Positions 4,517 through 62,538 of a stretch of DNA of 64,000 nucleotides are shown here, piece after piece. The notes beneath the pieces are model-generated. The model did no database searches. It saw only the letters and a list, made by a program, of their open reading frames with translations, and was not told the DNA's origin. Within the stretch, counting starts at the first letter, position 1, and every line of letters starts with the position of its first letter. The position numbers were made by a program, and so were the translations under genes. The stretch is taken from positions 1,364,001-1,428,000 of the forward strand of contig NZ_FQZX01000001.1 in NCBI RefSeq assembly GCF_900142175.1, in the 5' to 3' direction. Origin of the DNA: Maribacter aquivivus (GTDB taxonomy: Bacteria > Bacteroidota > Bacteroidia > Flavobacteriales > Flavobacteriaceae).

Positions 4517-4563
4517 TTGGCACTATTTACCTACTATTAGAAGAATTGATAGTTTATAATTAT

Positions 4564-11315: not shown

Positions 11316-11336
11316 AGCTTAGAAGTTTTCTAATAG

Positions 11337-12567: not shown

Positions 12568-12595
12568 ACAGACATGTGTATTGAAAATGAATTAG

Positions 12596-12645
12596 TTAAA
12601 ACATTAGATGGATTAAATTTCTATATAATCCATCTAATGTTTTAA
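12596..12645. promoter_or_regulatory. perfect 20-bp stem-loop in the NRPS/PKS leader
   Basis: The arm TTAAAACATTAGATGGATTA at 12596-12615 is exactly reverse-complemented at 12626-12645, with a 10-base loop. It ends 71 bp before the ATG of the 2463-aa synthase. No gene reads into it from the left on the plus strand, so it is not a terminator of a preceding gene. A leader attenuator, an mRNA-stability stem or a palindromic binding site are the likely roles. The run following the stem is AAAAG, not a T-tract, which argues against simple intrinsic termination rightward. Confidence 0.65.
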
Positions 12646-12716
12646 AAGTTCGCCATTTTCAACTAAAAATAAGTAAATAGCAACCCCACAAGTCTATACC
12701 TAATTATCATTTTATA

Positions 12717-20108: not shown

Positions 20109-20145
20109 AAATAGAAAGATTTAGAAAATAGATATGACTATTTAG

Positions 20146-20838: not shown

Positions 20839-21041
20839 TAGCGGTGTATGCCTTGTATGGCCGTTAAAGTGCTTTCGTTTATATCTAATCTGCTTAGGCG
20901 GTAATTGTGATATAGATAGATTTCTTAATTACGACGATTATATAAACGATGACGTCGGAATTTATAAGCAATCAATTTTTGTTTGATTTAATTTTGACCC
21001 TTACCATGTACAATAACTATAAGCTACAAACTTTACTATTT

Positions 21042-21833: not shown

Positions 21834-21944
21834 ACTCAACAATATATCTTTAAAAAAAAAACAGTTTACTTAAGTCTTAATGTTTTATAACCACCATAAC
21901 CTGGTTATGTATACTGAAGCTTAATTACCCTAAAATTGAATGTA

Positions 21945-24263: not shown

Positions 24264-24306
24264 GTGATTTATTTCACACAAAATTACTACACAGGATAAA
24301 ACAACA

Positions 24307-25563: not shown

Positions 25564-25569
25564 CCGATA

Positions 25570-26937: not shown

Positions 26938-26957
26938 AAAGTTGTAATAAACTAGAG

Positions 26958-28818: not shown

Positions 28819-30273
28819 TTAGTTATCAGAATTACAGTTGAAATCAAGTAAAATAGGTTCTCTCGGTTCAAAATCGATATCATCTCTATAGTCTACAACT
28901 TCAAAACTATATTCTGGCCAAATGATATTGGTAGGATTACATGATTCATAAACTAGGCAGTCAGTTATTTTATTGCCACCAGAAGTATCAAAAGCTGCAA
29001 ATATTAATGAGTTAGATGCTGGTAGCCCTCTGTCTTGTCCTAACTCTCCACATATAATTTGCTTCGCACGTAATCTGTTAAAAGTTACATTCCCAGAACC
29101 TTCAACTGAAGATGCAACACCATTTCCCATCTCTAAAAAGTCAACATCTTCAACAAGTCCGCCCGTACCTCCACGTGCACCTTCAGTATTTTGATCTTCA
29201 AACATTACACCAACACCCCTAGGGCTATTGTTGCCAACTATCAAACCTTTTTTAATCTGTTGTCCCGCACTTTTGTAAATACTAATATTGTCTTCGGTCC
29301 ATGCAATTTCTCGGTCATTTATTACTGAAAAATTCTCCAATAATCCTCCAATACATTTATCGTATTGTACTAATTGTCCTCTAGGAAAAGGACCTCTCAT
29401 ATTGTGACCTTCAATATAGGTCAATACAGACTCATCGCATTGATCTAATCGAATACCGGTAGAGCCATCTTCTACTTTTACATGGGTAATTACTAAATTC
29501 TCAGTATCAAATCCCTCAATACAATTTCTGGTAGCATCTGGTAAAGGACCACTAGAAGGGGCATCTGTATATTTAATGGAACAGTTTTCTATCGTTAAAT
29601 TATCTGCCTTAGCAAATTTAATACCCATATACGCACCGGTGTAATCAATAATACAATTTGATATGACGACGCCTGTAAATCCATTAATTTCTATACCATG
29701 CTGATTTAATGTTTTAATATGCAGGTTTTCTATGCGCTGGTTATTTTCAGTGACAATTATTGGACCTGAATCTTGACGAATGCTTGTGCATGGGGCTTCG
29801 ACAATCTCAGGTTCTACTGTTTCAGGTTCAGCAATTGTTGGTACTACGGTATAGTTTTCTTCCGTTCCATTTTCAGAAGTTACAGTATAGGTAACTTCCT
29901 CGCTAAAATCTTGTGGAGTAGTGGTATCTGGTATTACGGTTGCAGCCGAATCAACGGTAATGGTAGGTTTTAGTTGAAGCGTAGATATGCTACTGGTATC
30001 AATGTCAACATATATAAGATTTTGTTCTTCATCAATAACACCTATAATATCTGTGTTCAAACCTATATTATCAATTGATTGTATGCTGAAATTAGAAATT
30101 CTAAGCGTTGGGATAAAAACAGCTTCTTCCGTTGAGGTATCTTTAATTATAGATTCGCTAAGAATATCATGGTCAGACGAACAAGACCCTAATTGTAAAA
30201 ACGGGAATGTTAGTACAAGTAAAATAAATACTGTAGTGTTGAAGTACATGGGTTTAAATGTGATTCTTGCCAT
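28819..30273 (-). CDS. secreted lipoprotein with Ig-like domain and right-handed beta-helix
   Basis: The 484-aa protein has a signal peptide ending in LQLGSC, so Cys31 is the likely lipidation site. Residues about 50-145 form an Ig-like segment (ISTLQLKPTITV...FSEEVTYTVTSENGTEENYTV), reminiscent of the DUF5018 type. After a Pro/Glu/Val linker, residues about 165-450 form short repeating strands (ENLHIKTLNQHGIEI, VVISNCIIDYT, LTIENCSIKYT). This is a parallel beta-helix as in pectate-lyase-like proteins. In an EPS locus this architecture suits a polysaccharide lyase, epimerase or tailspike-like binder, but no catalytic residues can be assigned. It is convergent with the operon ending at 28777. 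A second beta-helix lipoprotein lies at 31568-33700. Confidence 0.8.
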   Translation of the reverse strand: MARITFKPMYFNTTVFILLVLTFPFLQLGSCSSDHDILSESIIKDTSTEEAVFIPTLRISNFSIQSIDNIGLNTDIIGVIDEEQNLIYVDIDTSSISTLQLKPTITVDSAATVIPDTTTPQDFSEEVTYTVTSENGTEENYTVVPTIAEPETVEPEIVEAPCTSIRQDSGPIIVTENNQRIENLHIKTLNQHGIEINGFTGVVISNCIIDYTGAYMGIKFAKADNLTIENCSIKYTDAPSSGPLPDATRNCIEGFDTENLVITHVKVEDGSTGIRLDQCDESVLTYIEGHNMRGPFPRGQLVQYDKCIGGLLENFSVINDREIAWTEDNISIYKSAGQQIKKGLIVGNNSPRGVGVMFEDQNTEGARGGTGGLVEDVDFLEMGNGVASSVEGSGNVTFNRLRAKQIICGELGQDRGLPASNSLIFAAFDTSGGNKITDCLVYESCNPTNIIWPEYSFEVVDYRDDIDFEPREPILLDFNCNSDN

Positions 30274-31567: not shown

Positions 31568-33700
31568 TTAATTACATAAGTTGAGACTTGAATTTTCTAT
31601 AACATTATTTGTTCCTCTTAGCCTAAAACACCCCGGACTTGTGGTAATAACTTCAACTCCCGATAATGAAACGTTTTCTCCGTCTGCACTATCCAAAGGA
31701 TAGACAGTAGAGGTAAGTGAATTATCTTTGAGTACCATATTTTCGAAAATTACATTATCTAGATTTCCTACAAATCTTAAGGTGTTAAATTTGTGACGAT
31801 CTTGGAATATACCGGTTTCGCTTTCGGCATACATATTTTTGAATGTTCCATTAGAAATATCTTGAATGTCAGCGAGCCCATCTCGTCTATAAGAAGAGTA
31901 TCCATCTACTGTTACGTTGGTAATATGATCTGTGAGTTTAAGAGAATTGCAATATCCACCACCTGATCTTACATTAGGTGAACCAACATAATTACCATTA
32001 TCAATTACGTCAGAAATATGTACCTCTCGAGAATCGTTCGGTTGACCATCTTTGTTGATGTAAAACAAATGAGGTGGAGGTGACCAAGTACCACCATTTC
32101 CGCCAATATCACCTCCAGCGGAATTTTGAATATCAGTATACCTATGCGAACGTACTGTCTCAACATTAAAATTTGACACATTACCTTGTATGCCCATAAT
32201 TGTGCCATCTAAAGTCAATCTTCTTAATGTAACGTTTGAAGTTTGAGTTTTAGGGTCAGTACTTTCGTTCGTTACACTGGTATTTTCGTTAAACTCTGTC
32301 GTTAACTTCATGAAATAAGGGCAGAATTGTTGTGCATTTGCACCATCTGGCACTCTTAATGAAACATCTTCTAGTAGAATATTTGAGGCGCCTCTAATGT
32401 TAAAAACTGCCCAAAAGGAAATTGCTCCCGACCATGCAGGGTCAGCGCCAGAAAAAGACATTCCTTTATTAGCAATTAACCAGTTTTCTACCTGTAATTG
32501 ATTGGCGGCATTTGTTTGCGAATCAATCGGTAAGGTAGAATAGGTTTGATCCCATACCATATTTATATTTTTAAAGGTAACATTATCGGCAAGTGCTATT
32601 ATAAATGCTGGTGAACGTAAGTTGTTGATAATTAATTCTGATTCAGATGTACCCTCTATCCAATCATTATCATTCAAGAAAATTGACTTTGTACCAGTAG
32701 CCGAAACATCAATAAACATTTTTCCATCGATCAAAATTTTGGCATTTGTATTATTTGCTTGTTTAAGGGTCTCTACAAGATAGTCTCTGTCATCGGTCGA
32801 ACCGTTCATGTAAGCGCCAAACCATTGAGGCTTAATAAACTCTGTGCCAAGGGTTCCAGCTAAATTAATTGATTCAAAAATACGTTGGTTGTCTTCAGTT
32901 TGAATTATTGTATTGTTGAAGGATATGGTACCATTAACTAGGGTGCCACCTTTAAAAATTAAGGTAATATTTTCCGGTAATATTATTTCTTGACCACTAA
33001 GCTCAAAACGGTCAAAAATCTCCCATGAAGCATTACCCATATTTGCAGGAATATTACTCCAATCAAAATTGCTTGGGATTACAAAATTCGTACTACTTAT
33101 GTCGTCGGTACCACTAGTATTATCAGTTTCCTCGTTTCCTTCTGGTTCTATTGTTACAGTGCCTTCTTCAGTTGTAGTAGAACCATCTTCCTCTTCTACT
33201 TCAATGACATAATCAAAGGTGTCTGTTTCTTGATTGTTTTGTTCTTCAGTTTCAGAATCGTCGGATGATGATTCTGAAGTTTCAGTTGATGTTTCTGATT
33301 CTTCTGATTCATTGGAAGAAGAATCAGAAGAATCTTCATGTGGCGTTTCTGCTGTATTGGAATCAACTTCATTATCAGAAGTATCTGTAGGAGTATAAAT
33401 AATTTTTTGATTTTCACTAATCTCTATAGCTCCATTTTCTGGATTAGAAGTTTGAATAATTTTCACATTTTGCCCTGCTGCAAATGTATCATTGGCTAGT
33501 ACATCTAAAATTATAGGGTCGTACCCGTTAATTATAAAAGCATCATCTACTGCATATTGATTATTGTTTTCATTAATGTTGGTAACATATTCTGAGAGAA
33601 TATCCGTATCCTTACTACAAGAAAAGTGAAGTGAAAATATTGCTAATAAAAAAAGTATATTAATCTTCTTGAAAATTAATCGTTGCATAAATAGGTTCAT
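31568..33700 (-). CDS. secreted beta-helix lipoprotein with acidic Ser/Glu/Thr-rich insertion
   Basis: From the ATG at 33700 (710 aa) a signal peptide ends at LHFSC, with lipid Cys about residue 28. An in-frame ATG at 33739 would add 13 residues before the signal, so 33700 is preferred. Next is an Ig/cadherin-like domain (VDDAFIINGYDPIILDVLANDTF ... KIIYTPTDTS) that is interrupted by about 60 residues almost wholly Ser, Glu, Thr, Asp and Asn. The fold then resumes with TFDYVIEVEEEDGSTTTEEGTVTI. Residues about 220-710 resemble a pectate-lyase-like right-handed beta-helix (KPQWFGAYMNGSTDDRDYLVETLKQA is the usual start). It may bind or cleave the locus polysaccharide; no active site is assignable. 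Confidence 0.8.
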   Translation of the reverse strand: MNLFMQRLIFKKINILFLLAIFSLHFSCSKDTDILSEYVTNINENNNQYAVDDAFIINGYDPIILDVLANDTFAAGQNVKIIQTSNPENGAIEISENQKIIYTPTDTSDNEVDSNTAETPHEDSSDSSSNESEESETSTETSESSSDDSETEEQNNQETDTFDYVIEVEEEDGSTTTEEGTVTIEPEGNEETDNTSGTDDISSTNFVIPSNFDWSNIPANMGNASWEIFDRFELSGQEIILPENITLIFKGGTLVNGTISFNNTIIQTEDNQRIFESINLAGTLGTEFIKPQWFGAYMNGSTDDRDYLVETLKQANNTNAKILIDGKMFIDVSATGTKSIFLNDNDWIEGTSESELIINNLRSPAFIIALADNVTFKNINMVWDQTYSTLPIDSQTNAANQLQVENWLIANKGMSFSGADPAWSGAISFWAVFNIRGASNILLEDVSLRVPDGANAQQFCPYFMKLTTEFNENTSVTNESTDPKTQTSNVTLRRLTLDGTIMGIQGNVSNFNVETVRSHRYTDIQNSAGGDIGGNGGTWSPPPHLFYINKDGQPNDSREVHISDVIDNGNYVGSPNVRSGGGYCNSLKLTDHITNVTVDGYSSYRRDGLADIQDISNGTFKNMYAESETGIFQDRHKFNTLRFVGNLDNVIFENMVLKDNSLTSTVYPLDSADGENVSLSGVEVITTSPGCFRLRGTNNVIENSSLNLCN

Positions 33701-34511
33701 ATTGTAGATGTAATTTTGGGGTGGGTGGTACTTAAACAATTACTTTGGGGTTGTATTTGTTTAAATAATTAACTATGTTCTTTATTTGTTTTTTGTTTAT
33801 ATTTTTGATATACGTATACAATTAAGGTTTTGGTTGTCCAAGACATTGATTATTAGACAATTGTTTTTTAAAATGTTGTGAAAACCTCATTTAGGATAAG
33901 TATAATTTTGGTTTTTTGTTGTAAAGAAATATTTAATAATTTTTTTACAAAAATATTTAAATAAATAAAATAATCGATGAAATATTCAAATAATCGATGA
34001 AATACACTTGATAATTTTTTAATCTATTTTTTATTCAACTTTCTTAAGCAAAACTTGAATAAAATGTAATTAATAGTTGAATTACGTAGTTTTTGGAAAA
34101 ACTTAATAAACAATATTTTATTTAGAGGATCTATTAAGAATGTAGAAATACAGACTTGGGTAAGATTAGAATTTGTCTGTTTTAGGACGTATAGTAAGTA
34201 CAATTAAGAATATATCTTAATTAAATTCTTACTATAGAATAGGTAAAACTGCATAGAACAGATGTACCTCGATTTAAAAATGAATCTAATTATTTTTATA
34301 TTTTATAAAGACTATTCTCGTAGTTTTTATAAAATTAATAAGGTATAATAAAATACTAGGTTTAAATTCTGACATACCATAGTAAATTACGGTAATCGGA
34401 AAAATTCTGTTTTCTTGAATGGTATTAATCTTGATACTTTGTATTTTTTTTTTGCTTTTATCAGTCGAATTGTAGAGTTATGATTTTTAAGGAAAATTTA
34501 AATATTTTATT
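33701..34511. other. 811-bp AT-rich intergenic region between two minus-strand genes
   Basis: No frame with coding character is present. It should hold the promoter of the beta-helix lipoprotein on the minus strand, and perhaps the 3' end of the long EPS transcript coming from the right. The notable structure is a pair of identical 17-base boxes at exactly 20-bp spacing (33968-34004). The rest is homopolymer-rich A/T sequence. Confidence 0.4.
33968..34004. repeat. two identical 17-bp boxes spaced exactly 20 bp
   Basis: AAATAATCGATGAAATA occurs at 33968-33984 and again at 33988-34004. A 20-bp period is about two helical turns, so both would face the same side of DNA. The core TCGATGAAAT also occurs twice upstream of the NRPS/PKS gene (12295-12305, 12378-12387). 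This looks like a tandem operator about 270 bp upstream of the beta-helix lipoprotein gene, but no regulator can be named. Confidence 0.4.
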
Positions 34512-36248
34512 TTATTGTTTCAATGATAGAACATAGTTGGAAACTTCTATTATTTCGTCATTTGAAAGTTTATTTTTCCAAGCGGGCATAGCGCCGTTTG
34601 CCGATCCATTTTTGATAATAAATTTCAAATTTTCTTTTCCCTTTGCTTCTTTATCGTTAATTAAATTGGGTGCTATGGCTCCTTGTCCCTCTCTTCCGTG
34701 GCATGTTTGACAATTTTGTTGGAAGATAGTTTTTCCAGTTTTTAATCTTTTATTAAATTCTTCATTGGTTGATGATAAGATTTTAAAATTTTCTTTTCTA
34801 ATGGGTTTAAATAAGGTAATGGTCAAATTATTAAACCCAGATACGTAAATATTACCATTTATTGGGTTCTCTATAAGATCTAGAGGACCGCCATCTAAAA
34901 CTAAGCCCATATCAGAACCTAGATAATCTTGAACTATATCCTTTTTTGACCCACCAGGTCTTAGAATAATAATGTCATTGTATTGCATTCTTGTCACTAG
35001 AATACAGTTTTGCAATTTTCCATTGAATACTTTGCTTTTATATTCAATAATACCAGTGGGGGCAACGTGTGGTCCAAAATCATAAGAAAATCCTCTAAAA
35101 TTGGTATCTGCTTCTATTCCGTTATATTCAAAATTTTCAACATCTATATCACCTCGATTGAGAACGTATTCTGCTCTTAAAGGGTTTGGGTGTCCATAAT
35201 AACCGCCTTGCTCTACACGAACCATAAAATCATTTTGATCAGGCTGAGCTCCTATAATTGCTCGAATATTTTTTGGTCCTTTATAGTTTATCGATGATAG
35301 AGGCGGGACGTAGTAGGGAGATTTTGGGTTAGAGGTTGGTGTGTTTTCATTTCCTCCAGAACCATTAATGGTTGTGTATAACTGACCATTGCTATGCCAA
35401 ACTAAATCATATGCATTTCTTACACCTGTAGCATAGATTTTTAATGGTGAATTATTTTGATATGGATCATAATTTCCGCCACCATCTTTTGTTTTAACAT
35501 CTAGAGGTAGTTCATTTGGTAATTTATTGGTGTCTAAAATTAAAATAGTAGCGGATAATGATGCCTCTTGAAAAGGTTTTTGCTTTTTCTCACAATCACA
35601 CCATCCCATACCTGTGTTGGCTCCTTGACTAAAATATAGTTTACCATTCTCGTCAAAAACAATAGAGTTTGCAAAATTTTCTTGATTTGGACCAAAACGG
35701 GGCAAACCTTTTATTATTATTTCATTTCTCAGGACCTCATCTGTTTCGCTGCTTAATTGTAAACGTGTTATACTACCAGCCCAATCTATTTTATCTTGAT
35801 TCATAGAAGAATTTGAGAACTTTACCCAATCACTATCGGTTTCTGAGTTTGAAGTCCAAATAATTAAACTATCGGAACTGGATATGGGGTCGAAAGCTAA
35901 ACCTATTGTGAATTTTGATAAGTCGCCATATGGTTTAAAGGTGTGTTCTAATTGTAATTCTCCAGTCGGCTGAATGTTAAACCGTAAAATCTGTCCATTA
36001 ATTTCACTTGCATATAGCTTGTGGTCAGGTCCGATAACTAAACTGGTAAATTGTCCTTTAATAGTTTTGTCTAAATTGACTTTTTGGAAGAGAATACCAT
36101 CTAATTCATTGTTAGGCATTGTGTTGTATATGCGTATTTGTCTATTTATATATCTATTGATTCGATTTGGATAAAACACAAGAATTAGTAATAATCCTAA
36201 AGTAAATAGCATTGCGACTTTTTTTGATTTACCATTCATACAAATCAT
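34512..36248 (-). CDS. membrane-anchored PQQ-type sugar dehydrogenase-like propeller with C-terminal cytochrome c
   Basis: The 578-aa protein has one N-terminal membrane helix (about residues 10-27). A six-bladed glucose/sorbosone-dehydrogenase-like propeller covers about 45-490 (QFTSLVIGPDHKLYASEINGQILRF, ANSIVFDENGKLYFSQGANTG, IYATGVRNAYDLVWHSNGQLYTTING). A class I cytochrome c domain follows, with CQTCH at 513-517 and the Met ligand in GAMPAW. Members pass electrons from a substrate via PQQ to heme, though many propellers of this type lack PQQ activity. It is the last gene of the right EPS operon; a much larger relative (51635-58765) sits near its start. The anchor suggests action at the periplasmic face. 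An ATG three codons on (36239) is an equally good start. Confidence 0.87.
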   Translation of the reverse strand: MICMNGKSKKVAMLFTLGLLLILVFYPNRINRYINRQIRIYNTMPNNELDGILFQKVNLDKTIKGQFTSLVIGPDHKLYASEINGQILRFNIQPTGELQLEHTFKPYGDLSKFTIGLAFDPISSSDSLIIWTSNSETDSDWVKFSNSSMNQDKIDWAGSITRLQLSSETDEVLRNEIIIKGLPRFGPNQENFANSIVFDENGKLYFSQGANTGMGWCDCEKKQKPFQEASLSATILILDTNKLPNELPLDVKTKDGGGNYDPYQNNSPLKIYATGVRNAYDLVWHSNGQLYTTINGSGGNENTPTSNPKSPYYVPPLSSINYKGPKNIRAIIGAQPDQNDFMVRVEQGGYYGHPNPLRAEYVLNRGDIDVENFEYNGIEADTNFRGFSYDFGPHVAPTGIIEYKSKVFNGKLQNCILVTRMQYNDIIILRPGGSKKDIVQDYLGSDMGLVLDGGPLDLIENPINGNIYVSGFNNLTITLFKPIRKENFKILSSTNEEFNKRLKTGKTIFQQNCQTCHGREGQGAIAPNLINDKEAKGKENLKFIIKNGSANGAMPAWKNKLSNDEIIEVSNYVLSLKQ

Positions 36249-49256: not shown

Positions 49257-51527
49257 TTAACTGTGGTCATGACCATATGACGGACCTTCTTTAGTATCAT
49301 TCAATAAAACCATTGTGTTTTTTAATTTCTCATTTTTGTAAACAGTTTCAATTGTCTTTAAATGTTCTTTATTGGTTACATCTTTTCTAACCACATAAAT
49401 TGTACTGTCTATAAATTTATTTAATGCAAAAGCATCTGAAACTAAACCTATCGGTGGGGTATCTATGATGATACGGTCATAATTTTCTTTCAAATTTTTT
49501 AATAAACCATCAATACGTTTACTCAACATTAGGCGTCCAATATTAGAATTCACAACTCCTGACCCTATCAGCGATAAATTTTCTATAGAAGGATGTTTTT
49601 GTATTATAATATTACTTGTTAATCCTTTTTTGATTATGAAGTCAGAAACACCAGGGGAGTTATCCATATTAAAATCAGCCATTAATTGCGGTTCTCTTAA
49701 ATCAAAAGCTATCAGTATTACTTTTTCGCCTAAAGAAGCCAATGTGACTGCTAAATTAGATGCTATAAAGGTTTTTCCCTCACCTTTTACAGTTGATGTA
49801 ACCAATAAGGTTTGATTTTTTTCAGTCTTCTTAAGATAATCTAAATTGAAATGTAAAAGCTGAAAAAGTTCAGTAGTTGGTGATGTTCCTCTACTTTCAT
49901 TATGAAGCAGAATTCCCTTTTTCTTACTTCTAGAAATTTCACCTAAAAAAGGAACTGATAAGCTTGTTGTTAGGTCTTCAACAGAAGTTACTTTGTTGTC
50001 CCAAGCATCCTTCACAAAAACCATAGAAAATGGCACTAATAATCCAAATAGTACACCAGTGAGGTAAAGTATTTTTTTGTTCGGACTTATTGGGAATTTT
50101 CCCGCTTGAGGATAGCTGACAATTCTTGTAGAGGATACTGGTGTGGCTAGTGATAATACCTCTTCTTCTCTTTTCTGCAACAAGAAAAGATATAAACCCT
50201 CTTTAGTACTCTTATCTCTGCTTATTTCTAATAATTTTTTTTCCATTCCAGGAACTCTAGCAATTCGAGCATCATAACGATTCGCATTGCTTAATAAGTT
50301 CTGACGGGCTATAGAGTACCCATTTTTAACGCTTCTTATATTTTGTAGAATTGATTCTCGTAAGTTGTTCAGTTTATCATTTAGATTCACTAAAACAGGA
50401 TTGGAGGTAACAGCAGATTGTGATAATTGATTGCGTTCTAAAAGAGTAGTGTTATAGTTGTTTATTAGACTTGTCAAACTAGAATTATTTATAGAAAATG
50501 ATCCTCCTATGGTAGATTCAGTAGTTCTACTCAATAATGATGTTTCAATATTGTCCAAAACCTTAATTTGGGTCTGATATTCTGCAACTTGTTTTTTGTA
50601 TTCATTAGACTGCTGAATATAACTATCAGCATTTCTTGCTACATCGGTAACAACATTTTCAGATTTAAAATCTGCGACTGATGTTTCTACATCTTCAATT
50701 TCTCCTGATAATAGCTTTAAACGCTCATCGATCATCTTAATCGTGTTCTCAGCCAATTCATTTTCGTATTTAATAGTTTTGTCAATATATGTTTCTACTA
50801 AACCTAAAAGAATGTCTTCACCTTTTTTCTGATGTCCGGCGATAAAATTTATGTTTAAAAGACTTCCTGTTTCATTATCTGGATGTACACTTAAGTTTTG
50901 CAAGAAGTTTGTAATAAGATCTTTCTTTTTTCCAACCACAAAATATAGCGGCTCTAAGTTGTCAATATCGGTAACTTCGTTTTTTAAAACAATAGTGAAA
51001 GTACCATAAGGTAAGGTTATCAATTCACCAAAATCATGCTTGGAATACAACTTTTTATCATTGTAGTCTGTATTTAATTCAAAGGTTTCCGAATCTAGAA
51101 AATTAACTGAAATTTGAAGACCATAAGCTAGACTGTCAGAAGTTTCATCGACTAAAATACGAACTGGTACATCCTCTCCATATATCTCAATATCTCTTAT
51201 TTTCCCTTCTTTATAATAAGTTATATTAAATGTGTTTTTTGTTATAACCTCTTCCATAACTCCGGTCGAGGTTAGAATACCTATTTCGTCTTCAAGGCTG
51301 TTTGCAGTTTTTACTAATCCAAACTTTCCAAAATTGTTGTTTTCAACAAACCCCTGTCTAGATTCTGTATTTTTAATCAGAATTTTACCTTGAATTTCAT
51401 ATTCGGTTTGTGACCAGTACCTTATGTACATAAAGACTGTTACTACTGCCAACATTATGCAGATTGTAAAAAAAGACCAATACCTACTATATTTTGAGAA
51501 TAAACTTCTAATATTCCATTGTTCCAT
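49257..51527 (-). CDS. Wzc-like polysaccharide co-polymerase with BY-kinase-type ATPase domain (right copy)
   Basis: The 756-aa protein has a membrane helix near residues 17-33, a periplasmic coiled-coil region (about 230-450) and a second helix near 480-500. A P-loop ATPase follows with VTSTVKGEGKTFIASN (Walker A) and YDRIIIDTPP (Walker B). Walker A' reads VILIAFDLREPQ: the Arg and second Asp are present but the first Asp is Ala. The C-terminus ends SYGHDHS with one Tyr only, so the usual autophosphorylation cluster is missing. It would set chain length for the right system. A Wza partner is not encoded nearby, so it may share the exporter at 21042. Confidence 0.9.
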   Translation of the reverse strand: MEQWNIRSLFSKYSRYWSFFTICIMLAVVTVFMYIRYWSQTEYEIQGKILIKNTESRQGFVENNNFGKFGLVKTANSLEDEIGILTSTGVMEEVITKNTFNITYYKEGKIRDIEIYGEDVPVRILVDETSDSLAYGLQISVNFLDSETFELNTDYNDKKLYSKHDFGELITLPYGTFTIVLKNEVTDIDNLEPLYFVVGKKKDLITNFLQNLSVHPDNETGSLLNINFIAGHQKKGEDILLGLVETYIDKTIKYENELAENTIKMIDERLKLLSGEIEDVETSVADFKSENVVTDVARNADSYIQQSNEYKKQVAEYQTQIKVLDNIETSLLSRTTESTIGGSFSINNSSLTSLINNYNTTLLERNQLSQSAVTSNPVLVNLNDKLNNLRESILQNIRSVKNGYSIARQNLLSNANRYDARIARVPGMEKKLLEISRDKSTKEGLYLFLLQKREEEVLSLATPVSSTRIVSYPQAGKFPISPNKKILYLTGVLFGLLVPFSMVFVKDAWDNKVTSVEDLTTSLSVPFLGEISRSKKKGILLHNESRGTSPTTELFQLLHFNLDYLKKTEKNQTLLVTSTVKGEGKTFIASNLAVTLASLGEKVILIAFDLREPQLMADFNMDNSPGVSDFIIKKGLTSNIIIQKHPSIENLSLIGSGVVNSNIGRLMLSKRIDGLLKNLKENYDRIIIDTPPIGLVSDAFALNKFIDSTIYVVRKDVTNKEHLKTIETVYKNEKLKNTMVLLNDTKEGPSYGHDHS

Positions 51528-51634: not shown

Positions 51635-54600
51635 TCAATTTTTAAACATTTTAATCGTAGTTGTTTTACCATAGTCGTCCACCGTCATAATGGTATAAAT
51701 TCCACTAGATAAATCATCGATGTAAATTTCTACATCATTAGTATTTTCAAAATCAATCTCCAATTTTTTTACTAACAATCCATTTGCGGAATAGATAAAA
51801 ACCTTCTGACAAACCGTATTTATATCGTCTGAATGAAGCGTAAATAAATCATTTACCGGATTTGGGTATAATGAGAGTTGAGAATCCTGAATTATTTTTG
51901 CTTTTAAAGCAGTGCTTTTGCTTGTAGTACCATTGTTAGGGCATAGCTTTACAAAATCTAACAGGTTTGAAGAATCAATGTCTCCGTCAGATGCTTGTAC
52001 AGGCGTAATTGTAAATTGAATTTCATTAACTCCGTTAGGTACTTGAAATTGTCCGGAATGTACTATCCATGATTGAGAAGAAGATACCGTTGCAATAACT
52101 GTTTGATTTCCGATTGGTCCTGCTGAAATACTAATGATATCAGTACCTTCTCGACCTTGATGCGAGAGCTCCCAGTCAAGTAATTGACCTGGTGTTACCG
52201 AAACTATTTGATTATGATGATTGGCATCCATTTCTACGAATACATCTCCATCTGGGGCTATACGACCTAAAAAACCACTTTGACCTAGTTCTAAACTGCC
52301 TCCTTGAGAGATTCCACCTTGTTGCAGTATTATACCACCTGTAGTAAACCATCCAGGAAAGTCGTTATCTGTGTGTGTGTCAATAAATTTAACCCCATTA
52401 TTAACAGTTCCTAAATCTTCTATTAAATCATATGCATTATTGTATGATGGATTGCTGGTTTCTTCAAAACTTCCATTTATCAATAGACTAAATTCTCCCG
52501 ATGCACATTGACATGCACATGAATCTGCATTAGATCTATAAATTTTAATAGACTCGGTATCATCATAATTTGAATATGATAATAAATCGACGGTATTGGT
52601 TATTAGTATAAAAGGTGTACCTCCAAAGTCTAATTCTGGATATAGTTCAACGGTGTAACCTTCTTCAATTTGAACAGAACCGATATCATCTGGAAGAATA
52701 CCTGACAGCGACATATTAGCATAATTGCCTATGCCAAAAGACCATGAAGAACCCATATAATCTTGATTTCGAAATAATGTAGCTATAGTTGGCTCTACAG
52801 TTGTCGAGCTTTCAAATATTCTTACAGATGATGCTAAATCATTAAAGCCTGTAGAAACCAAATTAGGTCCATTTTCTTCAAGTGTAAATTTATCACCTCC
52901 AAAATCTTTTTCAGAATAAAGTTCAATGATATAACCATTCTCTAGTTGCACCGATGAAGCATCATTCTCATTAATACCCAGTAATTCTAAGTCGGGATAA
53001 TCTCCTGCTTCCATTTGCCAAGAACTACCCCCATAGTTGATGTCTTGAAATAATGTTGCAATAGTTGGACCAGCAATTGCCATATGCTCGTATATTTTTA
53101 CTGAAGATGTAAGATCGTCAAAACCTGAAGTAACCAAATTTGTATTACTTTCATTTAGTATAAATACATCACCTCCAAAATCCCTTTCAGAATAAAGTTC
53201 AATGATATAACCTTCCGCAACCTGTACAGATGAAGCATCATTATCGTTTATTCCGTAAAAGGCTAGGTCTGGGTAATCTCCTGCGCCAAGTTGCCAAGAT
53301 GATCCATTATAACCTGTATTTTGAAATAAAGTTGCTATGGTTGGTCCCGTAGGTGTTGAACTTTTATATATTTTAATAGATGAGGTTTGGTCATTGAACT
53401 CTTCGGATACTAAGTCTGGTGAGTTTTCCTCTAAGACGAATATGTTACCTTCAAAATCTTTTTCAGAATATAATTCAATAATATAGCCTTCTAGAATCTG
53501 AACCGAAGATGCATCATTATCGTTAATTCCTTGCAGGGTTATGTCGCGATATTCTCCAGCTTCCATTTCCCATGCTGTTCCGCTGTAATTGATATTCTGA
53601 AATAAGGTTGCAACTTTTGGTCCAGTTGCTATCATGGATTGATACACTTTTACTGATGATGTTTGATCGTCAAAACTTGCGGTAACCAAATTTGAATTGT
53701 TTGCCTCCAATATGAATAAATCCCCTTCAAAATTCTTTTCGGAATACAATTCAATAGTGTAGCCTATTTCAATTTGAACTGATGAGGCATCATTATCGAT
53801 AATGCCTAGTTGTGTAATATCTGGAAATTCTCCTACAGCAATTTTCCATGCTGAACCACCGTAATTTGTATTTTGAAAAAGTGTGGACACCGTTGGTCCT
53901 GAACTTGTAACACTTGGGTATATTCTAATGGATGATGTCTGGTCGTTAAATCCGGAAGAAATAAGGTTAGTTGCGTTTTCCTCTAAAACGAATACATCGC
54001 CTCCAAAGTCTTTCTCAGAATATAGCTCAATGGTATAACCTTCTGTGATTTGTATAGATGAAGCATCGTTATCATTAATTCCTTGAATAGTAATATCACG
54101 ATATTCACCAGCTCTCATTTCCCATGAAGTTCCGGTATAGTTGATATTCTGGAACAAGGTTGCTATTACAGGATTAGTTGTTACTATTGATTCATATATT
54201 TTAACAGACGATGTACGATCGTCAAAACCAGCGGCGACTAGATTAGTATTGTTTGCCTCCATAATGAATACATCACCTTCAAAATTCTTTTCGGAATATA
54301 ATTCAATTGTATAGCCTACTTCGATTTGTACCGATGAGGCATCGTTATCGTTAATTCCTTGCAATGAAATGTCTTCATAATTACCAGCAGAAAGTTGCCA
54401 TGCAGAACCACCATAATTTGTATTTTGAAAAAGTGTTGCAACTATTGGTCCAGAAGGCACTACACTTTTATATATCTTAACAGATGATGCTTGGTCGTTA
54501 AAGCCTGTTGAAACCAAATTGGGTCCATTTTCCTCAAGAATAAATACATCACCGCCAAAATCTTTTTCAGAATACAGTTCAATAATATAGCCTTCAGTTA

Positions 54601-57600
54601 TCTGTACCGATGATGCATCATTATCACTTATTCCTTGTAAAGTTAAGTCGGTATATTCCCCTGCCTCCATAGCCCATGAAGTACCTGTATAATTGACATT
54701 TTGGAAAAGTGTGGCAACAACATCTAATTCTGGCTCAAATACAATGATTTTAATTGATTCTGTGTCGTTATCAATGCCAAGTGATGTAAGGTTTTCAGAA
54801 TCTGATGATAATATCACAGGAGTACCTCCAAAGTTTAATTCCGGGTATAATTCTACTGAAAAACCTTCTTCGATTTGCACCGAACTTATCGCATTCATTG
54901 TTAAGTCTTGAAGTGAAATATCAGCATATTCTCCTTCTTCTAGTTCCCAAGAATTGCCGCTATAATCGCTATCTTGATAAAATGTTGCCACTGTTGGTCC
55001 CGAAGGCACTACACTTTGATATATCTTAGCAGATGATGCTTGGTCGTTAAAGCCTGTTGAAACCAAGTTGGGTCCATTTTGCTTAAGAACGAATACATTT
55101 CCACCAAAATCTTTTTCTGAAAACAGCTCAATTACATAACCTTCTAATATCTGTACCGATGAGGCATCATTATCATTTATTCCCTGTAAGGTTAGGTCAG
55201 GATATTCACCCTCTTCTATACCCCATGAGATGCCGTTGTAGTCGACATCTTGGTAAAGTGTGGCAACGACTTCTAATTCTTGCTCGACCACACTAATTTT
55301 GACTGATTCTATATCATCGTCTATGCCAAGGGTAACAAGATCGTCAGAATCTGATGTTATTATTACGGGTATACCTCGATAATTTAAATCTGGATATAAT
55401 TCTATAGAAAAACCTTCTTCTACCTTTACTGAACTTACCTCGTTCAACGTTATGCCTTCTGTCGAAATGTCTGGGTATTCTCCTTCTTGAAGAGGCCAAG
55501 AGTCGCCAACATAATTATTGTTTTGATAAAAGGTCGCTACCATAGGTGCTGAGGGTATTTCTGATGGATAGATTTTTATTGAAGATAACTTATCATTAAA
55601 ATCGTAATGACCTAAAAAATTTGAATTTCCATTTAGGACTACCACTTCTCCTTCATAATCAATCTCTGAATACAATTCAACAATATAACCTTCATCTAAC
55701 TGTAGTGAAGAGGCTTCATTATTTGGTATATTCTCATAGGTAATCACTGGATAATTTCCTTCGCTAAGTTCCCAGCTAGTTCCATTGTAATCCGCATGTT
55801 GAAAAAGGGTTAGGACCGGAACGGCAAGTTCTCCATTAATAGCGTTAATATTTATTTCAATATTGAACTGGTACGTTCTATTTAAATGCGGTACAATAGA
55901 GTTTCCTTGAGGAATATATCCCATTACCAAATGGGGGTTAGAATTGGCATTGGCTTCATAAGATTGCCAAATATCATCGGTAGAACCTGATGTTATGGCA
56001 GGTATTAAACTATTATCGGTAGTTGAGCCAGACCCATCAGGATAAGCATCCATAAAACCTGGAGCTATACTTTCGCCAGGTTGTAAAATAACCGCATCAT
56101 TAGAATGGTCACTGAAATTGAAAGTGTTATTGCCAATACCATACTCAGAAGGGGTTCGTGTTTGACCAATTGATACAACTTTAAAATCGTTTTCACCAAG
56201 AACTTTAACTATAAAAGGTGTTACTGGGTTGCCCAATCTACTGGCATAAAAGTTAAAATTTTCAAGGCATATACTTACGGAAATATCTTCGTTATTGGTG
56301 TATGACCCTGTTCTGCTTACATTTATATGAGGGCTATGGGCATCTAGAAAGTTGCCATCAGTTAAATTATCACTACCTAACAAGGCAGTATTTTCTTCGT
56401 TACAGTTTCCATTCAAGCTATTAATCCATGCTTCTACTAATTGTATAGCCTCGGTGTCTACCCTACCTTTTGCCAATGGTGGCATCATTGTAGAAAGGTC
56501 TAAAGAATTCAATCTAAAATGCACGTTTGACTGCGTAACCTCTCCGGGTACAATGGCTTTATTGCTTCCTGTCAAATCTTCTATAATATCGCCTTGTATT
56601 AATGCTTGTTCTGATAATGGTGTGCTGAAACGCAAATCAAAACTCGCCCTAGTATTTCCCGGTAGATGACAATATGCGCAATTAGAGTCAAAATATGATC
56701 TTGCTCTAACTTCTAAAGATTGATTGTTATCATCAATACTAACTAGGGTGGGAACGTTTTCTAAATCTACTTCGGGAATAAAGCCTAATGCTGTCAAAGT
56801 TTCCAGTTGGTTAGATGTTCTACCAGTAGATGGATACAATATTTTTTTATTTAATTGCCTAGTATTAAAACCCAATACCCATCCGGCACTAGGGTTGTGA
56901 CATTGAATACAAGTATTTGAAGCAGGATATTCATAGCCAAATGTGTCGCCGTCAATCGTAATATTTTCATTATCACCAAGCAAAAGTAAATCAGCTTCCA
57001 AACCGTTACTTCTCCATTTGTAAGTGCTACCAAACCACTCACCATCTTCACTATGAATCCACAAACGTGTTTCTAATTTGGTGCCGTTTGTATTATTGAA
57101 TTGTTTAATGAATGTTGTGCCAATAGGAAAAGTCCAATGCCCTTCTTCATTATATCCAATTTGTTCAATAGTACTATTAACATTACCATCTTGTGGAATT
57201 GAAACCCAACGTTGTTTTTCTGTACCAGAAGACCAAAGAGGATTGTTAACCTCATAAGGTATTACACCTTCCGTAGGAGTTAAATTTTGTAAATCAGAAA
57301 AGATTCCTGTTTCTGATAAAAGTGAGGGTAGAGGCTCATTTTGATTATCTTGATTATTTATAATTTTAAAAATTTTACCACCACCCGGAACGCCATTAGA
57401 AAGTTTAAGGACCATTAATTCGTTAGCATGATTATACCCTAAGGATGATATTCCATTAAATACAGATCCACCAATATTACTGATAACATCTACTTCGCCG
57501 AAAGTATTACCACCTGTGTGTGTTAGCGCATATACAGATCCGTTTGCATTATCACCAAATATATATTTTCCATATAGACTGGGGATTGCAGTACCCCTGT

Positions 57601-58765
57601 ATACATACCCACCAATAACTGCGCTTCCTACAGATCCATCATATGCATAAAGGGGTTCTCTTTCTGTACCATATAGCGGATTGGGCATATTTGTTGAGTT
57701 TCGGTATCCATCTACAAAACCTTCTTTAATATTCCATTGAAAATTTAGACCAGGTTGATCTATTATATTTACTTCTTCCCATTTTGAAGCTCCTACATCA
57801 CCTAACCAGAAATTGCCAGTAGGTGGGTCATAGGTCATTCTAAAGGGTTGTCTAAGACCAATGGCGTAAAATTCTTCTAAAAACTCACCGGTTCCAGTGA
57901 CCCAAGGGTTATCATTTGGTATATAATAACCTTGAGTATAAGATTGATCTAAATTTATAGGTGTATTACTATTATCAGGTTGCCTTTCTATGGGATGACT
58001 TATTGTTCCTCCTTGCATGTCCACATCTATTCGCCATACACCACTTCTAAAACGATCATTCAGTAATTGAGTATGTGGAGTGGCCTCAACGCTATGAGTA
58101 CCTTCATCACCAACCGAAACATATAAAAACCCATCTCCGTCAAAGGCAAGTCCGCTACCATCGTGACCTTTTGTAGTATCATACTGATTAATCATAATTA
58201 GTTCGCTACTAGGGTCAAAAGTAGTTCCTGTCCAAGTAAACCTACTTAATCTATCATAATAAGGTTCAGTCCAATCTGAATCTTCATTTTCCGTTTTATG
58301 TACATAATAAACATAGATATAATCTTTACCTAAACTTTTTCCGAAATCGGGGTGAAAGATTACATTTTGAAATCCACCATGTTTTTGACCAGTATTGCCA
58401 CTATAAGTATAGTACCAACAACGGTCCTGAATATCCATAACCAAAGTACGTTCAGTAGATTGGGCATTATCATTGTCTGGTATGGTGTAAAAACGACCGT
58501 CCATCTCAACTATCAATAATTTGTTCGTTTCTGGAAACGGTAAAATTGCTTGTGGTGATTCCCATTCGATATTAGTATGTATTTCTACTAGGTCAATATC
58601 TTCACTCGGTTTTGAATTAGGAAGATTACCGTTCATAAAAGGAGTAATAGCTTGAATGCTATCTAGACCGGGTTGAAAATAAATTACCGCCTTAAAACTT
58701 AAAAACGCTAAAGGTAAAAGCAATAATAACCATGATTTTTTCTGTGGGATAAATGATGTTCTCAT
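51635..58765 (-). CDS. giant secreted protein: sorbosone dehydrogenase-like propeller, diheme cytochrome c region, 12 beta-gamma-crystallin domains, T9SS signal
   Basis: The 2376-aa protein begins with a hydrophobic export signal (residues 10-30). Residues about 55-480 form a PQQ-type sorbosone/glucose-dehydrogenase-like propeller (GHDGSGLAFDGDGFLYVSVGDEG, GLRQPFRMTYDPPTGNFWLGDVG). Residues about 490-800 contain two c-type heme sites, CIQCH (619-623) and CAYCH (696-700), in the arrangement of SO2930-type diheme proteins. After a linker domain come twelve repeats of about 91 residues (984-2078), each with two Greek-key motifs of beta-gamma-crystallin type. A DUF642-like sugar-binding-type module (about 2095-2280) follows a Cys-rich SCACQCASG. 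A T9SS type A sorting domain closes it (LYPNPVNDLF, about 2298-2376). It lies between PST and Wzc genes, which points to a cell-surface or matrix protein of this EPS. Confidence 0.9.
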   Translation of the reverse strand: MRTSFIPQKKSWLLLLLPLAFLSFKAVIYFQPGLDSIQAITPFMNGNLPNSKPSEDIDLVEIHTNIEWESPQAILPFPETNKLLIVEMDGRFYTIPDNDNAQSTERTLVMDIQDRCWYYTYSGNTGQKHGGFQNVIFHPDFGKSLGKDYIYVYYVHKTENEDSDWTEPYYDRLSRFTWTGTTFDPSSELIMINQYDTTKGHDGSGLAFDGDGFLYVSVGDEGTHSVEATPHTQLLNDRFRSGVWRIDVDMQGGTISHPIERQPDNSNTPINLDQSYTQGYYIPNDNPWVTGTGEFLEEFYAIGLRQPFRMTYDPPTGNFWLGDVGASKWEEVNIIDQPGLNFQWNIKEGFVDGYRNSTNMPNPLYGTEREPLYAYDGSVGSAVIGGYVYRGTAIPSLYGKYIFGDNANGSVYALTHTGGNTFGEVDVISNIGGSVFNGISSLGYNHANELMVLKLSNGVPGGGKIFKIINNQDNQNEPLPSLLSETGIFSDLQNLTPTEGVIPYEVNNPLWSSGTEKQRWVSIPQDGNVNSTIEQIGYNEEGHWTFPIGTTFIKQFNNTNGTKLETRLWIHSEDGEWFGSTYKWRSNGLEADLLLLGDNENITIDGDTFGYEYPASNTCIQCHNPSAGWVLGFNTRQLNKKILYPSTGRTSNQLETLTALGFIPEVDLENVPTLVSIDDNNQSLEVRARSYFDSNCAYCHLPGNTRASFDLRFSTPLSEQALIQGDIIEDLTGSNKAIVPGEVTQSNVHFRLNSLDLSTMMPPLAKGRVDTEAIQLVEAWINSLNGNCNEENTALLGSDNLTDGNFLDAHSPHINVSRTGSYTNNEDISVSICLENFNFYASRLGNPVTPFIVKVLGENDFKVVSIGQTRTPSEYGIGNNTFNFSDHSNDAVILQPGESIAPGFMDAYPDGSGSTTDNSLIPAITSGSTDDIWQSYEANANSNPHLVMGYIPQGNSIVPHLNRTYQFNIEININAINGELAVPVLTLFQHADYNGTSWELSEGNYPVITYENIPNNEASSLQLDEGYIVELYSEIDYEGEVVVLNGNSNFLGHYDFNDKLSSIKIYPSEIPSAPMVATFYQNNNYVGDSWPLQEGEYPDISTEGITLNEVSSVKVEEGFSIELYPDLNYRGIPVIITSDSDDLVTLGIDDDIESVKISVVEQELEVVATLYQDVDYNGISWGIEEGEYPDLTLQGINDNDASSVQILEGYVIELFSEKDFGGNVFVLKQNGPNLVSTGFNDQASSAKIYQSVVPSGPTVATFYQDSDYSGNSWELEEGEYADISLQDLTMNAISSVQIEEGFSVELYPELNFGGTPVILSSDSENLTSLGIDNDTESIKIIVFEPELDVVATLFQNVNYTGTSWAMEAGEYTDLTLQGISDNDASSVQITEGYIIELYSEKDFGGDVFILEENGPNLVSTGFNDQASSVKIYKSVVPSGPIVATLFQNTNYGGSAWQLSAGNYEDISLQGINDNDASSVQIEVGYTIELYSEKNFEGDVFIMEANNTNLVAAGFDDRTSSVKIYESIVTTNPVIATLFQNINYTGTSWEMRAGEYRDITIQGINDNDASSIQITEGYTIELYSEKDFGGDVFVLEENATNLISSGFNDQTSSIRIYPSVTSSGPTVSTLFQNTNYGGSAWKIAVGEFPDITQLGIIDNDASSVQIEIGYTIELYSEKNFEGDLFILEANNSNLVTASFDDQTSSVKVYQSMIATGPKVATLFQNINYSGTAWEMEAGEYRDITLQGINDNDASSVQILEGYIIELYSEKDFEGNIFVLEENSPDLVSEEFNDQTSSIKIYKSSTPTGPTIATLFQNTGYNGSSWQLGAGDYPDLAFYGINDNDASSVQVAEGYIIELYSERDFGGDVFILNESNTNLVTSGFDDLTSSVKIYEHMAIAGPTIATLFQDINYGGSSWQMEAGDYPDLELLGINENDASSVQLENGYIIELYSEKDFGGDKFTLEENGPNLVSTGFNDLASSVRIFESSTTVEPTIATLFRNQDYMGSSWSFGIGNYANMSLSGILPDDIGSVQIEEGYTVELYPELDFGGTPFILITNTVDLLSYSNYDDTESIKIYRSNADSCACQCASGEFSLLINGSFEETSNPSYNNAYDLIEDLGTVNNGVKFIDTHTDNDFPGWFTTGGIILQQGGISQGGSLELGQSGFLGRIAPDGDVFVEMDANHHNQIVSVTPGQLLDWELSHQGREGTDIISISAGPIGNQTVIATVSSSQSWIVHSGQFQVPNGVNEIQFTITPVQASDGDIDSSNLLDFVKLCPNNGTTSKSTALKAKIIQDSQLSLYPNPVNDLFTLHSDDINTVCQKVFIYSANGLLVKKLEIDFENTNDVEIYIDDLSSGIYTIMTVDDYGKTTTIKMFKN
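52535..55816 (-). repeat. twelve tandem ~273-bp coding repeats (beta-gamma-crystallin domains)
   Basis: Each unit encodes ATLFQ..NY.G.SW...EG.Y.D, then I.DNDASSVQ, then GY.IELYSEKDFGG, then NDQTSSVKIY. By eye 17 of the 24 expected (N/D)(N/D)xx(S/T)S calcium-binding motifs are intact. Units 2, 4 and 12 form a second class with ELYPELNFGGTP and degenerate motifs in both halves. Units 3 and 5-11 are most alike, suggesting recent expansion there. Confidence 0.88.
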
Positions 58766-58916: not shown

Positions 58917-60266
58917 TTAATATGCTTTTTCTTCACCTTTAATAGCATTATAGACCGTGTAATAAATAATGGATAGATCTAGTTTTAATGACCATTTTTC
59001 CATGTAAAAAATATCGTATCGAACTCTATTTATAATGTCTGATTGCTCTATTATTTCGCCTCTATAGCCTTTTATTTGAGCCAATCCTGTAATGCCAGGT
59101 TTAAGAAAGTGCCTTACTAAATATTTGTCTACCGAATTTTGATATTTTTCAGTATGTAAATGCATGTGTGGTCGTGGGCCAACTACGCTCATATGGCCTA
59201 AAAAAACATTTATGAACTGCGGTAGTTCGTCTATGCTTGTTCTTCTTAATATGCGCCCTAACTTAGTTACTCTCATATCGTTTTTACAGGCCATAAGAGT
59301 ATCACAATCATTTGATCTTGTCATTGATCTATACTTATAGCATAAAAAAGTTTTTTTATTTAAGCCATGTCTGCTTTGTGTAAAGAATACGGGACCAGGA
59401 GAATCAAATTTTTGTAAAATATAAATTAGAGGTGATAGCCAAGAAAGAATAAAAACAATGACAAGACTAGAGAAAAATATATCGAAGCCACGCTTAACTA
59501 AATTCGCATACTCTAATTCTAAAGGTGAAGCTCTTAGGTCTAAAACAGGAACATTGCCGTATAGCTCTACTGACATCGCTCTTGTGAAAAACTCTTTATT
59601 GTCAGGTATAATTTTGATATGTTTAAAGGTATTATCGGTAATTCTTATTAGTTCTTTTATTTCGTTTTTAGTTAGTTGAGATGCAATACAGAATACTTCA
59701 GTAATATCATTTTCAAAAATATATTTGTAACACCTTTCTATGGACCCTAAGTATGTAGGGCTTTTTGAAATTTTATTGTCAAAAAAACCGACATACTCAA
59801 AGTTGTGGTCTTTATTGTCAAAAATTGCTCTTACTTTTTTTAGATTTTTATCCCAACCTACAACTACGACTTTGTTTGGCTTAGAGATTGAAGAATAATA
59901 GATTTTTTTTATCCAATAAAAAAATATTTTAAAAACTGATAATTGTAGGCAAATAAATCCATAAACACTAAAAAGATATACTATACTATAGGTTTTTGGT
60001 CCTAAAAAAGTAAATGAAGAAAAAAATACCAACCCGTATAATACAAAAACTCGTAAAAAATTAAACGTTTTAGATGTACTAGCTTTTCGTTTTGCCCTTG
60101 AATAAAATTTAATACTATGAGTTACAAATAACCATCCCAAATTATAGTAAATAACCCCGGTAATACCATATCTATATGTCTCAGCTGTAAAATAATACAA
60201 AGTAGCATTTATGGCAACTAGATGAATTAACAAAGAAAGAGGTATTCCAAAATAGGATTTTTTCAT
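58917..60266 (-). CDS. polyprenyl-phosphate sugar-1-phosphate transferase (PST), right copy
   Basis: The 449-aa paralogue of the enzyme at 1955-3301 has the same plan. N-terminal membrane helices (residues 8-120) lead to a Rossmann-like domain with KVVVVGWDKNLKKV, then a helix near 258-280. The sugar-transferase domain follows with CYKYRSM, TSIDELPQFINVFLGHMSVVGPRPH and RHFLKPGITGLAQ. It would load the first sugar of the right locus repeat unit on undecaprenyl phosphate. It lies 185 bases downstream of gmd and 151 bases upstream of the giant protein. The two PSTs are close enough to accept the same sugar, so both polymers may start alike. Confidence 0.92.
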   Translation of the reverse strand: MKKSYFGIPLSLLIHLVAINATLYYFTAETYRYGITGVIYYNLGWLFVTHSIKFYSRAKRKASTSKTFNFLRVFVLYGLVFFSSFTFLGPKTYSIVYLFSVYGFICLQLSVFKIFFYWIKKIYYSSISKPNKVVVVGWDKNLKKVRAIFDNKDHNFEYVGFFDNKISKSPTYLGSIERCYKYIFENDITEVFCIASQLTKNEIKELIRITDNTFKHIKIIPDNKEFFTRAMSVELYGNVPVLDLRASPLELEYANLVKRGFDIFFSSLVIVFILSWLSPLIYILQKFDSPGPVFFTQSRHGLNKKTFLCYKYRSMTRSNDCDTLMACKNDMRVTKLGRILRRTSIDELPQFINVFLGHMSVVGPRPHMHLHTEKYQNSVDKYLVRHFLKPGITGLAQIKGYRGEIIEQSDIINRVRYDIFYMEKWSLKLDLSIIYYTVYNAIKGEEKAY

Positions 60267-62058: not shown

Positions 62059-62538
62059 TTATACAATATCCCTCAATTTCATATTAAGAACAACACCCAT
62101 ACCTTCTAAAATTAATCGTACTCGGGTTTTTCCTATTTCAATAATCTCTGCTTTCTGGTCTTTTAAAGCTCCATATTTTATTGAAATTTTATCGCCAGAT
62201 TCTAGTTTGGTTAGACTATAATTTTCAACCGTATCGTTAGTTAACCACTTTTTTAAAGTTTGCATCTCAATATCACGCACAATAGCGGGGTTTCCCAACC
62301 AATATAAATATCGTACAACACCAGGAACTTCAAAAACCCTTTGTCTTTCTGATTCTGAGATATTTACAAAAACATAAGATTTAAACAAAGGAACTTCAAT
62401 AGTCTTTTTTCTGTCACTCCATTGTTTTAACTCCTTTATCATAGGACAATAAATATCAATCTTGTGGTCCAATAATCTTTGGGAAACCTTCTTTTCGTTT
62501 TTGGGTTTTACATAAATGACATACCAGTTTGTGGACAT
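62059..62538 (-). CDS. UpxY/NusG-like capsule transcription antiterminator
   Basis: The 159-aa protein has an NGN domain at the N-terminus: NWYVIYVKPKNEKKVSQRLLDHKIDIYCPMI, VPLFKSYVFVNI and VRYLYWLGNPAIV. A short KOW-like domain at the C-terminus has LESGDKISIKYGALKDQKAEIIEIGKTRVRLIL. This is the plan of the UpxY proteins that head capsule operons in Bacteroides and relatives, where they prevent premature termination of the long operon. It is first on the minus strand ahead of gmd, PST and the rest, down to about 34512, so it probably controls the right EPS locus. The left locus has no copy in the window. Confidence 0.92.
   Translation of the reverse strand: MSTNWYVIYVKPKNEKKVSQRLLDHKIDIYCPMIKELKQWSDRKKTIEVPLFKSYVFVNISESERQRVFEVPGVVRYLYWLGNPAIVRDIEMQTLKKWLTNDTVENYSLTKLESGDKISIKYGALKDQKAEIIEIGKTRVRLILEGMGVVLNMKLRDIV

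Follow-up and report, generated by a model that had tools for sequence, protein, structure and literature searches.

The described proteins closest to the one that we report here resemble it in different parts. The fungal AA12 enzyme CcPDH likewise joins a propeller, a cytochrome and a binding module, as set out in the accessible part of its description (PMC6881789), and Protein S, vibrillin and clostrillin belong to the same domain family as its repeats and have the same calcium motif, N/D-N/D-X-X-S/T-S (PMC3551895, in the portion available). The head of the protein recurs among GSDH-diheme (TIGR03806-like) proteins from both Verrucomicrobia and Bacteroidota, a number of which are annotated as sugar dehydrogenases dependent on pyrroloquinoline quinone (PQQ). 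Here we describe a gene from Maribacter aquivivus (RefSeq assembly GCF_900142175.1, contig NZ_FQZX01000001.1) that lies in the 64,000-nucleotide stretch from 1,364,001 to 1,428,000 of the forward strand, hereafter the window. The open reading frame (ORF; 51635..58765, minus strand, with an ATG start and free of internal stops) encodes a giant protein of 2376 amino acids and 261.6 kDa, with a predicted pI of 4.05 if the first 27 residues are excluded, and it stands among genes for exopolysaccharide (EPS). We conclude that the redox head of this protein is not new but belongs to a widespread family, whereas its calcium tail and its link to EPS genes are confined to a small branch of that family. 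The reading that we favour, with a confidence slightly above even, is that the giant is a predicted quinohaemoprotein sugar dehydrogenase which the cell secretes and which is fixed in the EPS of its own operon.

Profile and motif searches support the architecture proposed in a first-pass annotation (a propeller, two heme c sites, twelve crystallin domains and a type IX secretion system (T9SS) signal), and they add a conserved beta-sandwich and a DUF642-like domain that had been overlooked. Behind a hydrophobic N-terminal export signal, judged by eye (residues ~1-30; 58676..58765, this and all other parts of the gene being on the minus strand), comes a six-bladed propeller (residues ~55-474; 57344..58603) that belongs to the GSDH family, with 84.4 bits against PF07995 (cut-off 25). 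It is followed by an SO2930-type diheme cytochrome c region (residues 480-784; 56414..57328) that matches TIGR03806 below the cut-off, and by the beta-sandwich (residues 785-983; 55817..56413), for which neither Pfam nor NCBIfam has a model. The beta-sandwich is conserved in 110 of the 121 GSDH-diheme proteins that we compared, i.e., the giant and 120 listed homologues out of 772 found with its head. Twelve beta/gamma-crystallin domains, delimited by PF00030, repeats and calcium motifs, occupy residues 984-2078 (52532..55816). Next comes the DUF642-like domain (residues 2079-2296; 51878..52531), which stays below the cut-off of PF04862 (E 0.0034, 17.6 bits, cut-off 27) and has a BLASTP match in 11 of the 121 proteins, the giant included. 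The C-terminal tail (51638..51877) is a T9SS type A sorting domain by both Por_Secre_tail PF18962 (38.3 bits, cut-off 27) and TIGR04183 (30.5 bits, cut-off 23), and with SprA encoded in the genome the protein has both the sorting domain and the system that mark type A cargo.

The crystallin repeats are 91-92 residues long, the last being truncated at 85, and they are members of the family by both profile (PF00030, 309.7 bits, 11 stretches passing) and calcium motifs. The earlier estimate that about 17 of 24 motifs are intact proved exact: the canonical [ND][ND]xx[ST]S occurs at 17 of the 24 possible places in the array (a further match, the 18th, is at 2277, beyond the array), whereas 1000 shuffles of the array averaged 0.45 matches and never gave more than 4. 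Both motifs are present in eight domains and one in CR11, and CR2, CR4 and CR12 have none; the net charge of the array is -143. Among solved beta/gamma-crystallins the best sequence match is Protein S (E 4.8e-11), the rest being weaker, and it is on these profile and sequence matches that the predicted crystallin fold of the repeats rests. All 11 PF00030 matches in the genome (E <= 0.001) fall inside the giant ORF. Could the array be a product of chance or of misassembly? We reject this because a 12-unit array is present in each of three genomes and the gene is under purifying selection, with a dN/dS between this genome and locus L014 (Maribacter sp. 1_MG-2023) of 0.11 for the core and 0.20 for the array. 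A gene on the plus strand was also rejected: the translated plus frame is rich in stops, and the largest plus ORF of at least 100 amino acids inside the locus, which is the sole one, has 105.

The combination of domains had at first gone unrecognised, which needs correction as regards the head: besides its 772 homologues, 24 of 36 Maribacter genomes contain matches to it (E <= 1e-50), and this genome has two further copies. The first-pass annotation had named as fatal to its proposal the finding that the same fusion is common and unlinked to EPS genes; since the head is widespread this is true of the head, but it is not true of the crystallin-bearing branch. Going by precomputed Pfam lists, counted by eye, crystallin domains are absent from 111 of the 120 listed homologues, and the nine bearers are all among the 11 closest relatives (at least 52% identity), the other two of which have discoidin and Ig-like domains. 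By anchor pattern there are 12 repeats in P0002, 10 in P0005, 9 in P0004 (Maribacter 2307ULW6-5) and 4 in P0006 (Maribacter IgM3_T14_3), the last two being absent from the loci analysed for gene context; two units were counted by eye at L017 and one at L141, and P0007 and P0008 have none in the Pfam lists. Other tails on the same head include LamG, PA14, CBM6, discoidin and ricin domains, and ThuA, counted by eye, occurs on 81 of the 120. A search with the tail (residues 984-2296), in which scoring was confined to 7984 word-sharing candidates of comparable length, gave six matches, five with crystallins and one (P0106) with the C-terminal domain, and all six have PF07995. As the same head bears varying tails, the tail is an exchangeable module, probably one for holding glycans. 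The two paralogues in this genome are large and near each other (L011, 3587-10369 and 13759-19470); ricin-type lectin and PKD domains are present in the former, and each of the two has a sorting-like tail by eye. We found no printed description of such a protein in a literature search that was thin on subscription papers.

Is the head a working enzyme? His201 (58163..58165) is the counterpart of the catalytic His144 of soluble glucose dehydrogenase (sGDH), aligned via the His of this genome's Asd, and Arg305 (57851..57853) is by alignment the counterpart of sGDH Arg228, which we take to contact PQQ. Both are invariant (121/121), and the giant thus has the catalytic His and the PQQ-contacting Arg of the sGDH/Asd-type dehydrogenases. 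In AA12 the counterpart of Arg305 is Arg430, according to the part of PMC6881789 at hand. The first heme c site, CIQCH at residues 619-623 (56897..56911), keeps its two Cys and its His in 121/121 and the second, CAYCH at 696-700 (56666..56680), keeps its motif in 121/121, while Met761 (56483..56485), Met in 120/121, is a candidate distal heme ligand. In fold comparison the propeller is near Asd, sGDH and AA12, which supports an enzymatic reading.

Several observations weigh on the other side. The cytochrome region scores 215.2 bits against the curated TIGR03806 cut-off of 313.3, with profile positions 2-314 of 314 and both CxxCH motifs in the match. At VFNGISSLG, the stretch aligned with the PQQ-carboxylate GRVR of Asd, there is no Arg in an alignment of a divergent region; in the part of PMC6881789 available, AA12 enzymes use other residues for PQQ binding, and the propeller is 14% identical to that of Trichoderma reesei AA12. 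Directly after Arg305, where Asd has Asn, the 121 proteins variously have E, Q, H, S or N. PqqC, the one pqq gene searched for, was not found in this genome or in those of L014, L015 and L021 (the identical search was positive in 2 of 15 genomes); PQQ would need to be scavenged. Finally, the nearest solved relatives by sequence are chains of human HHIP, and these also lead the fold comparisons, if narrowly.

The HHIP match, the lack of the Asd carboxylate-site arginines and the PqqC result all lend themselves to a different reading, namely that the propeller is no longer an enzyme but an HHIP-like glycan-binding scaffold, the whole protein being a calcium-stabilised matrix adhesin with a vestigial or structural cytochrome. 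HHIP-C indeed binds heparin partly through its propeller, as the accessible part of PMC8660895 has it. We regard this as unlikely, if the most serious of the alternatives. The earlier suggestion of sugar oxidation is likely in view of the invariant His and Arg, and is weakened by the arginines without counterpart and by the PqqC search. Our best reading of the alignments is that the giant is a GSDH-fold protein that would work like a PQQ dehydrogenase rather than a proven member of the sGDH/Asd type.

The second pillar of the favoured reading is the neighbourhood of the gene, where EPS genes were named by eye unless a family is given. An undecaprenyl-phosphate sugar phosphotransferase gene (PST; 58917..60266, minus) lies 151 bp upstream and a gene for a Wzc-type chain-length/export kinase (49257..51527, minus) 107 bp downstream, within a same-strand run of genes that extends from a NusG-like gene upstream of the operon (62059-62538) down to 34512. 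The giant gene had been placed at the head of an EPS operon; it is near the head but is not the first gene, as the NusG-like gene, GMD and PST precede it. The order PST-giant-Wzc is also found in L014 and L015 (uncultured Maribacter), where the genes are mostly 90-99% identical to those of the window, with lower values for the NusG-like gene (80%), the whole giant (85-88%) and a second propeller gene (78%, L014). Relatives with a different complement of EPS genes, in which the tie recurs, provide stronger evidence. L016 and L021 retain NusG-GMD-GMER-PST-giant with a PST only 63-65% identical and a giant of ~76% over ~1110 residues, and on the contig of the L021 genome that holds the opposite end of the giant (L140) the crystallins, C-terminal domain and tail are followed by a different EPS set (flippase, fucosyltransferase, polymerase, glycosyltransferases (GTs) and Wzc, by eye). 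In Saprospiraceae, the head (56%) at L020 comes after PST-like, GT, MBOAT and SGNH genes, and a tail-end contig (L141) has polymerase, GT, flippase and Wzc genes downstream on the other strand, again by eye.

We fetched 71 loci; those that reach 9 kb or more number 57, six from the branch and 51 from the wider family. An EPS-type neighbour was present at five of the six branch loci and at one of the 51 others (L059), as raw counts without a matched background; our probes came from this window and two branch genomes, and distant EPS genes may therefore have been missed in the 51. The linkage has further limits that count against an EPS role. The five linked loci amount to about three independent cases, one of them in Saprospiraceae, because the operon block of the window is common to L014 and L015, and a single arrangement to L016 and L021. 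The sixth branch locus, L023, has no EPS genes (RND efflux and sensor genes lie upstream), and at L017, shorter than 9 kb and with crystallin-like units by eye, there are none on the downstream side, the sole side covered. The giant is present in only 3 of 36 Maribacter genomes (core 97-100% identical; other matches are 36-42%), and it is missing from the same place in seven further Maribacter genomes, those whose Wzc relatives are the nearest (L156-L162, 55-63%): PST is directly followed by Wzc in six, and the order is PST, Wza, Wzc in one (G007). EPS export thus does not require the giant. We also considered that the giant substitutes for Wza, of which no ORF was seen by eye in the operon, and rejected this because six of those seven loci have neither a Wza beside Wzc nor a giant.

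Might the EPS locus then be incidental, and the protein a scavenging enzyme for foreign polysaccharides such as algal glycans, whose binding tail varies and whose place in the operon was gained by chance or by hitchhiking on a mobile operon? The two paralogues elsewhere in the genome, one with ricin and PKD domains in its tail, would fit such a role, and so would the synonymous divergence (dS) from L014, which in most EPS genes (0.01-0.23, later ones included; 0.01-0.17 in GMD, PST, Wzc, Wzx and the GT that follows) is below that of two housekeeping genes (0.39 and 0.43, for part of dnaE and a DUF58-type gene), as if the operon had been exchanged. Exceptions to this pattern are a pair of GT genes (0.55-0.57), the second propeller gene (0.90 in G024, 0.11 in G030) and the NusG-like gene (1.45 against L014, and 1.4-1.5 over L014 and L015). 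Against this explanation, the linkage survives a diverged PST, a different gene set and a change of family while being seen at a single locus of the wider family, and we consider it quite improbable.

The divergence is uneven within the giant gene itself. The dS of the head as such is 0.11, the gene having higher windows of 0.45 (codons 361-480) and 0.80 (codons 1081-1200), and in the distal third (51635-53730, from within CR8 to the tail), compared with L014/L015, it is 0.6 to ~1.4, the last window being saturated, before a sharp downstream boundary at Wzc (0.008). Values in the array are inflated because shuffled repeats are being compared (CR5 is 98% identical to CR3 of L014 and 90% to its CR5); the non-repetitive C-terminal domain alone gives 0.84. 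From this pattern, the outer end of the giant has probably been exchanged, whereas the head seems to move together with the operon, an exchange that exposure to phages or grazers, or the fit to different glycans, might explain. That the acidic array, with its charge and its 17 motifs, is primarily a cation store or calcium buffer, or a nucleator of a calcium biomineral, to which the redox head is secondary, is very improbable, since the crystallins number 12, 10, 9, 4, 2, 1 or none on a constant head and the tail is therefore the optional part.

Returning to the matrix-fixed dehydrogenase, how would it work? The chain would enter the periplasm, acquire two hemes c and PQQ, and then be exported by the T9SS; the propeller would oxidise a sugar, free or borne on a polysaccharide, and electrons would pass via the two hemes to an extracellular acceptor. 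By analogy with Cellvibrio, a c-type cytochrome of which reduces lytic polysaccharide monooxygenases (PMC8981238, accessible part), the acceptor could be such an enzyme or another cytochrome. The beta-sandwich, crystallins and DUF642-like domain would anchor the head in the matrix, the crystallins acting as a calcium-loaded acidic spacer able to cross-link with anionic polysaccharide, and the protein may in this way tie calcium and polysaccharide together, as was first proposed for it. Sea water holds ~10 mM calcium. Crystallin affinities of 4-100 uM, the range given in the available portion of PMC3551895, are far below this, so that the sites would be permanently filled, with calcium as a cement and not a signal.

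The operon contains a further candidate for electron transfer. A second propeller-cytochrome gene (34512..36248, minus; 578 amino acids) encodes a GSDH propeller with one CxxCH (PF07995 39.3 bits, PF13442 55.5 bits). It stands at the far end of the operon, 24 bp after the last GT gene and before a 772-bp gap, ~22.5 kb from the giant gene start to start with ~15 kb of other EPS genes between. In all three copies the catalytic His is Asn, and the protein may thus transfer electrons instead of oxidising sugar. The 3 of 36 Maribacter genomes that have the giant also have this gene in near full-length form, the copy in G024 containing a stop close to where the aligned stretch begins. We do not take this co-occurrence as proof of partnership; its force is weakened because these genomes share the entire operon as one block. 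A search at E 1e-20 gave no second propeller protein for the genomes of L016, L020 and L021, and those of L017, L023 and three other Maribacter match only in the propeller part, at 41-48%, within much longer frames. A bolder and rather unlikely extension is that the EPS forms an electroactive, calcium-cemented matrix in which the embedded quinohaemoprotein oxidises sugars, electrons run along extracellular hemes, interchangeable crystallins set spacing and adhesion, and the second propeller-cytochrome is the cell-side partner; the sugar oxidised would perhaps be the EPS itself, tailored to acidic, calcium-binding ends.

Other features of the window include two secreted proteins with a similar N-terminus beside EPS genes (28819-30273, a right-handed beta-helix, and 31568-33739, Big_9); at L140 a protein with a similar N-terminus comes after Wzc. 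A hybrid cluster for nonribosomal peptide and polyketide synthesis that ends in a phosphopantetheinyl transferase gene (7356-20838, plus), a second EPS cluster with Wza and Wzc (20949-28777, plus) and further copies of PST and GMD (1955-5676) were all recognised by eye.

Three questions arise from these observations. Does an EPS operon supply its matrix with an oxidoreductase of its own? Are the common GSDH-diheme proteins, apparently uncharacterised, PQQ enzymes? And what is the role of long crystallin arrays in bacteria?

Compared with known systems, the giant shares its propeller and diheme cytochrome (121/121) and mostly its beta-sandwich with the other GSDH-diheme proteins, from which it is set apart by their frequent ThuA domain, their lack of crystallins in 111 of 120 and the rarity of EPS genes nearby (1 of 51 loci). 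E. coli Asd has carboxylate-site arginines without counterpart in the giant, and, unlike Asd and A. calcoaceticus sGDH, the giant has its head fused to a cytochrome and a tail. HHIP is not known to have a cytochrome. HHIP-C, the closest solved propeller by sequence and narrowly so by fold, differs further in its EGF repeats and its binding of Hedgehog and heparin, as described in the accessible part of PMC8660895. CcPDH and T. reesei AA12 have an N-terminal heme b domain (AA8) and a CBM1 (PMC6881789, accessible part) in place of the diheme c region, crystallins and T9SS tail of the giant, which would work like the AA12 enzymes rather than being a proven member of their family. Finally, the domain known from Protein S, vibrillin and clostrillin appears in the giant as twelve copies in tandem, carried on a redox head.
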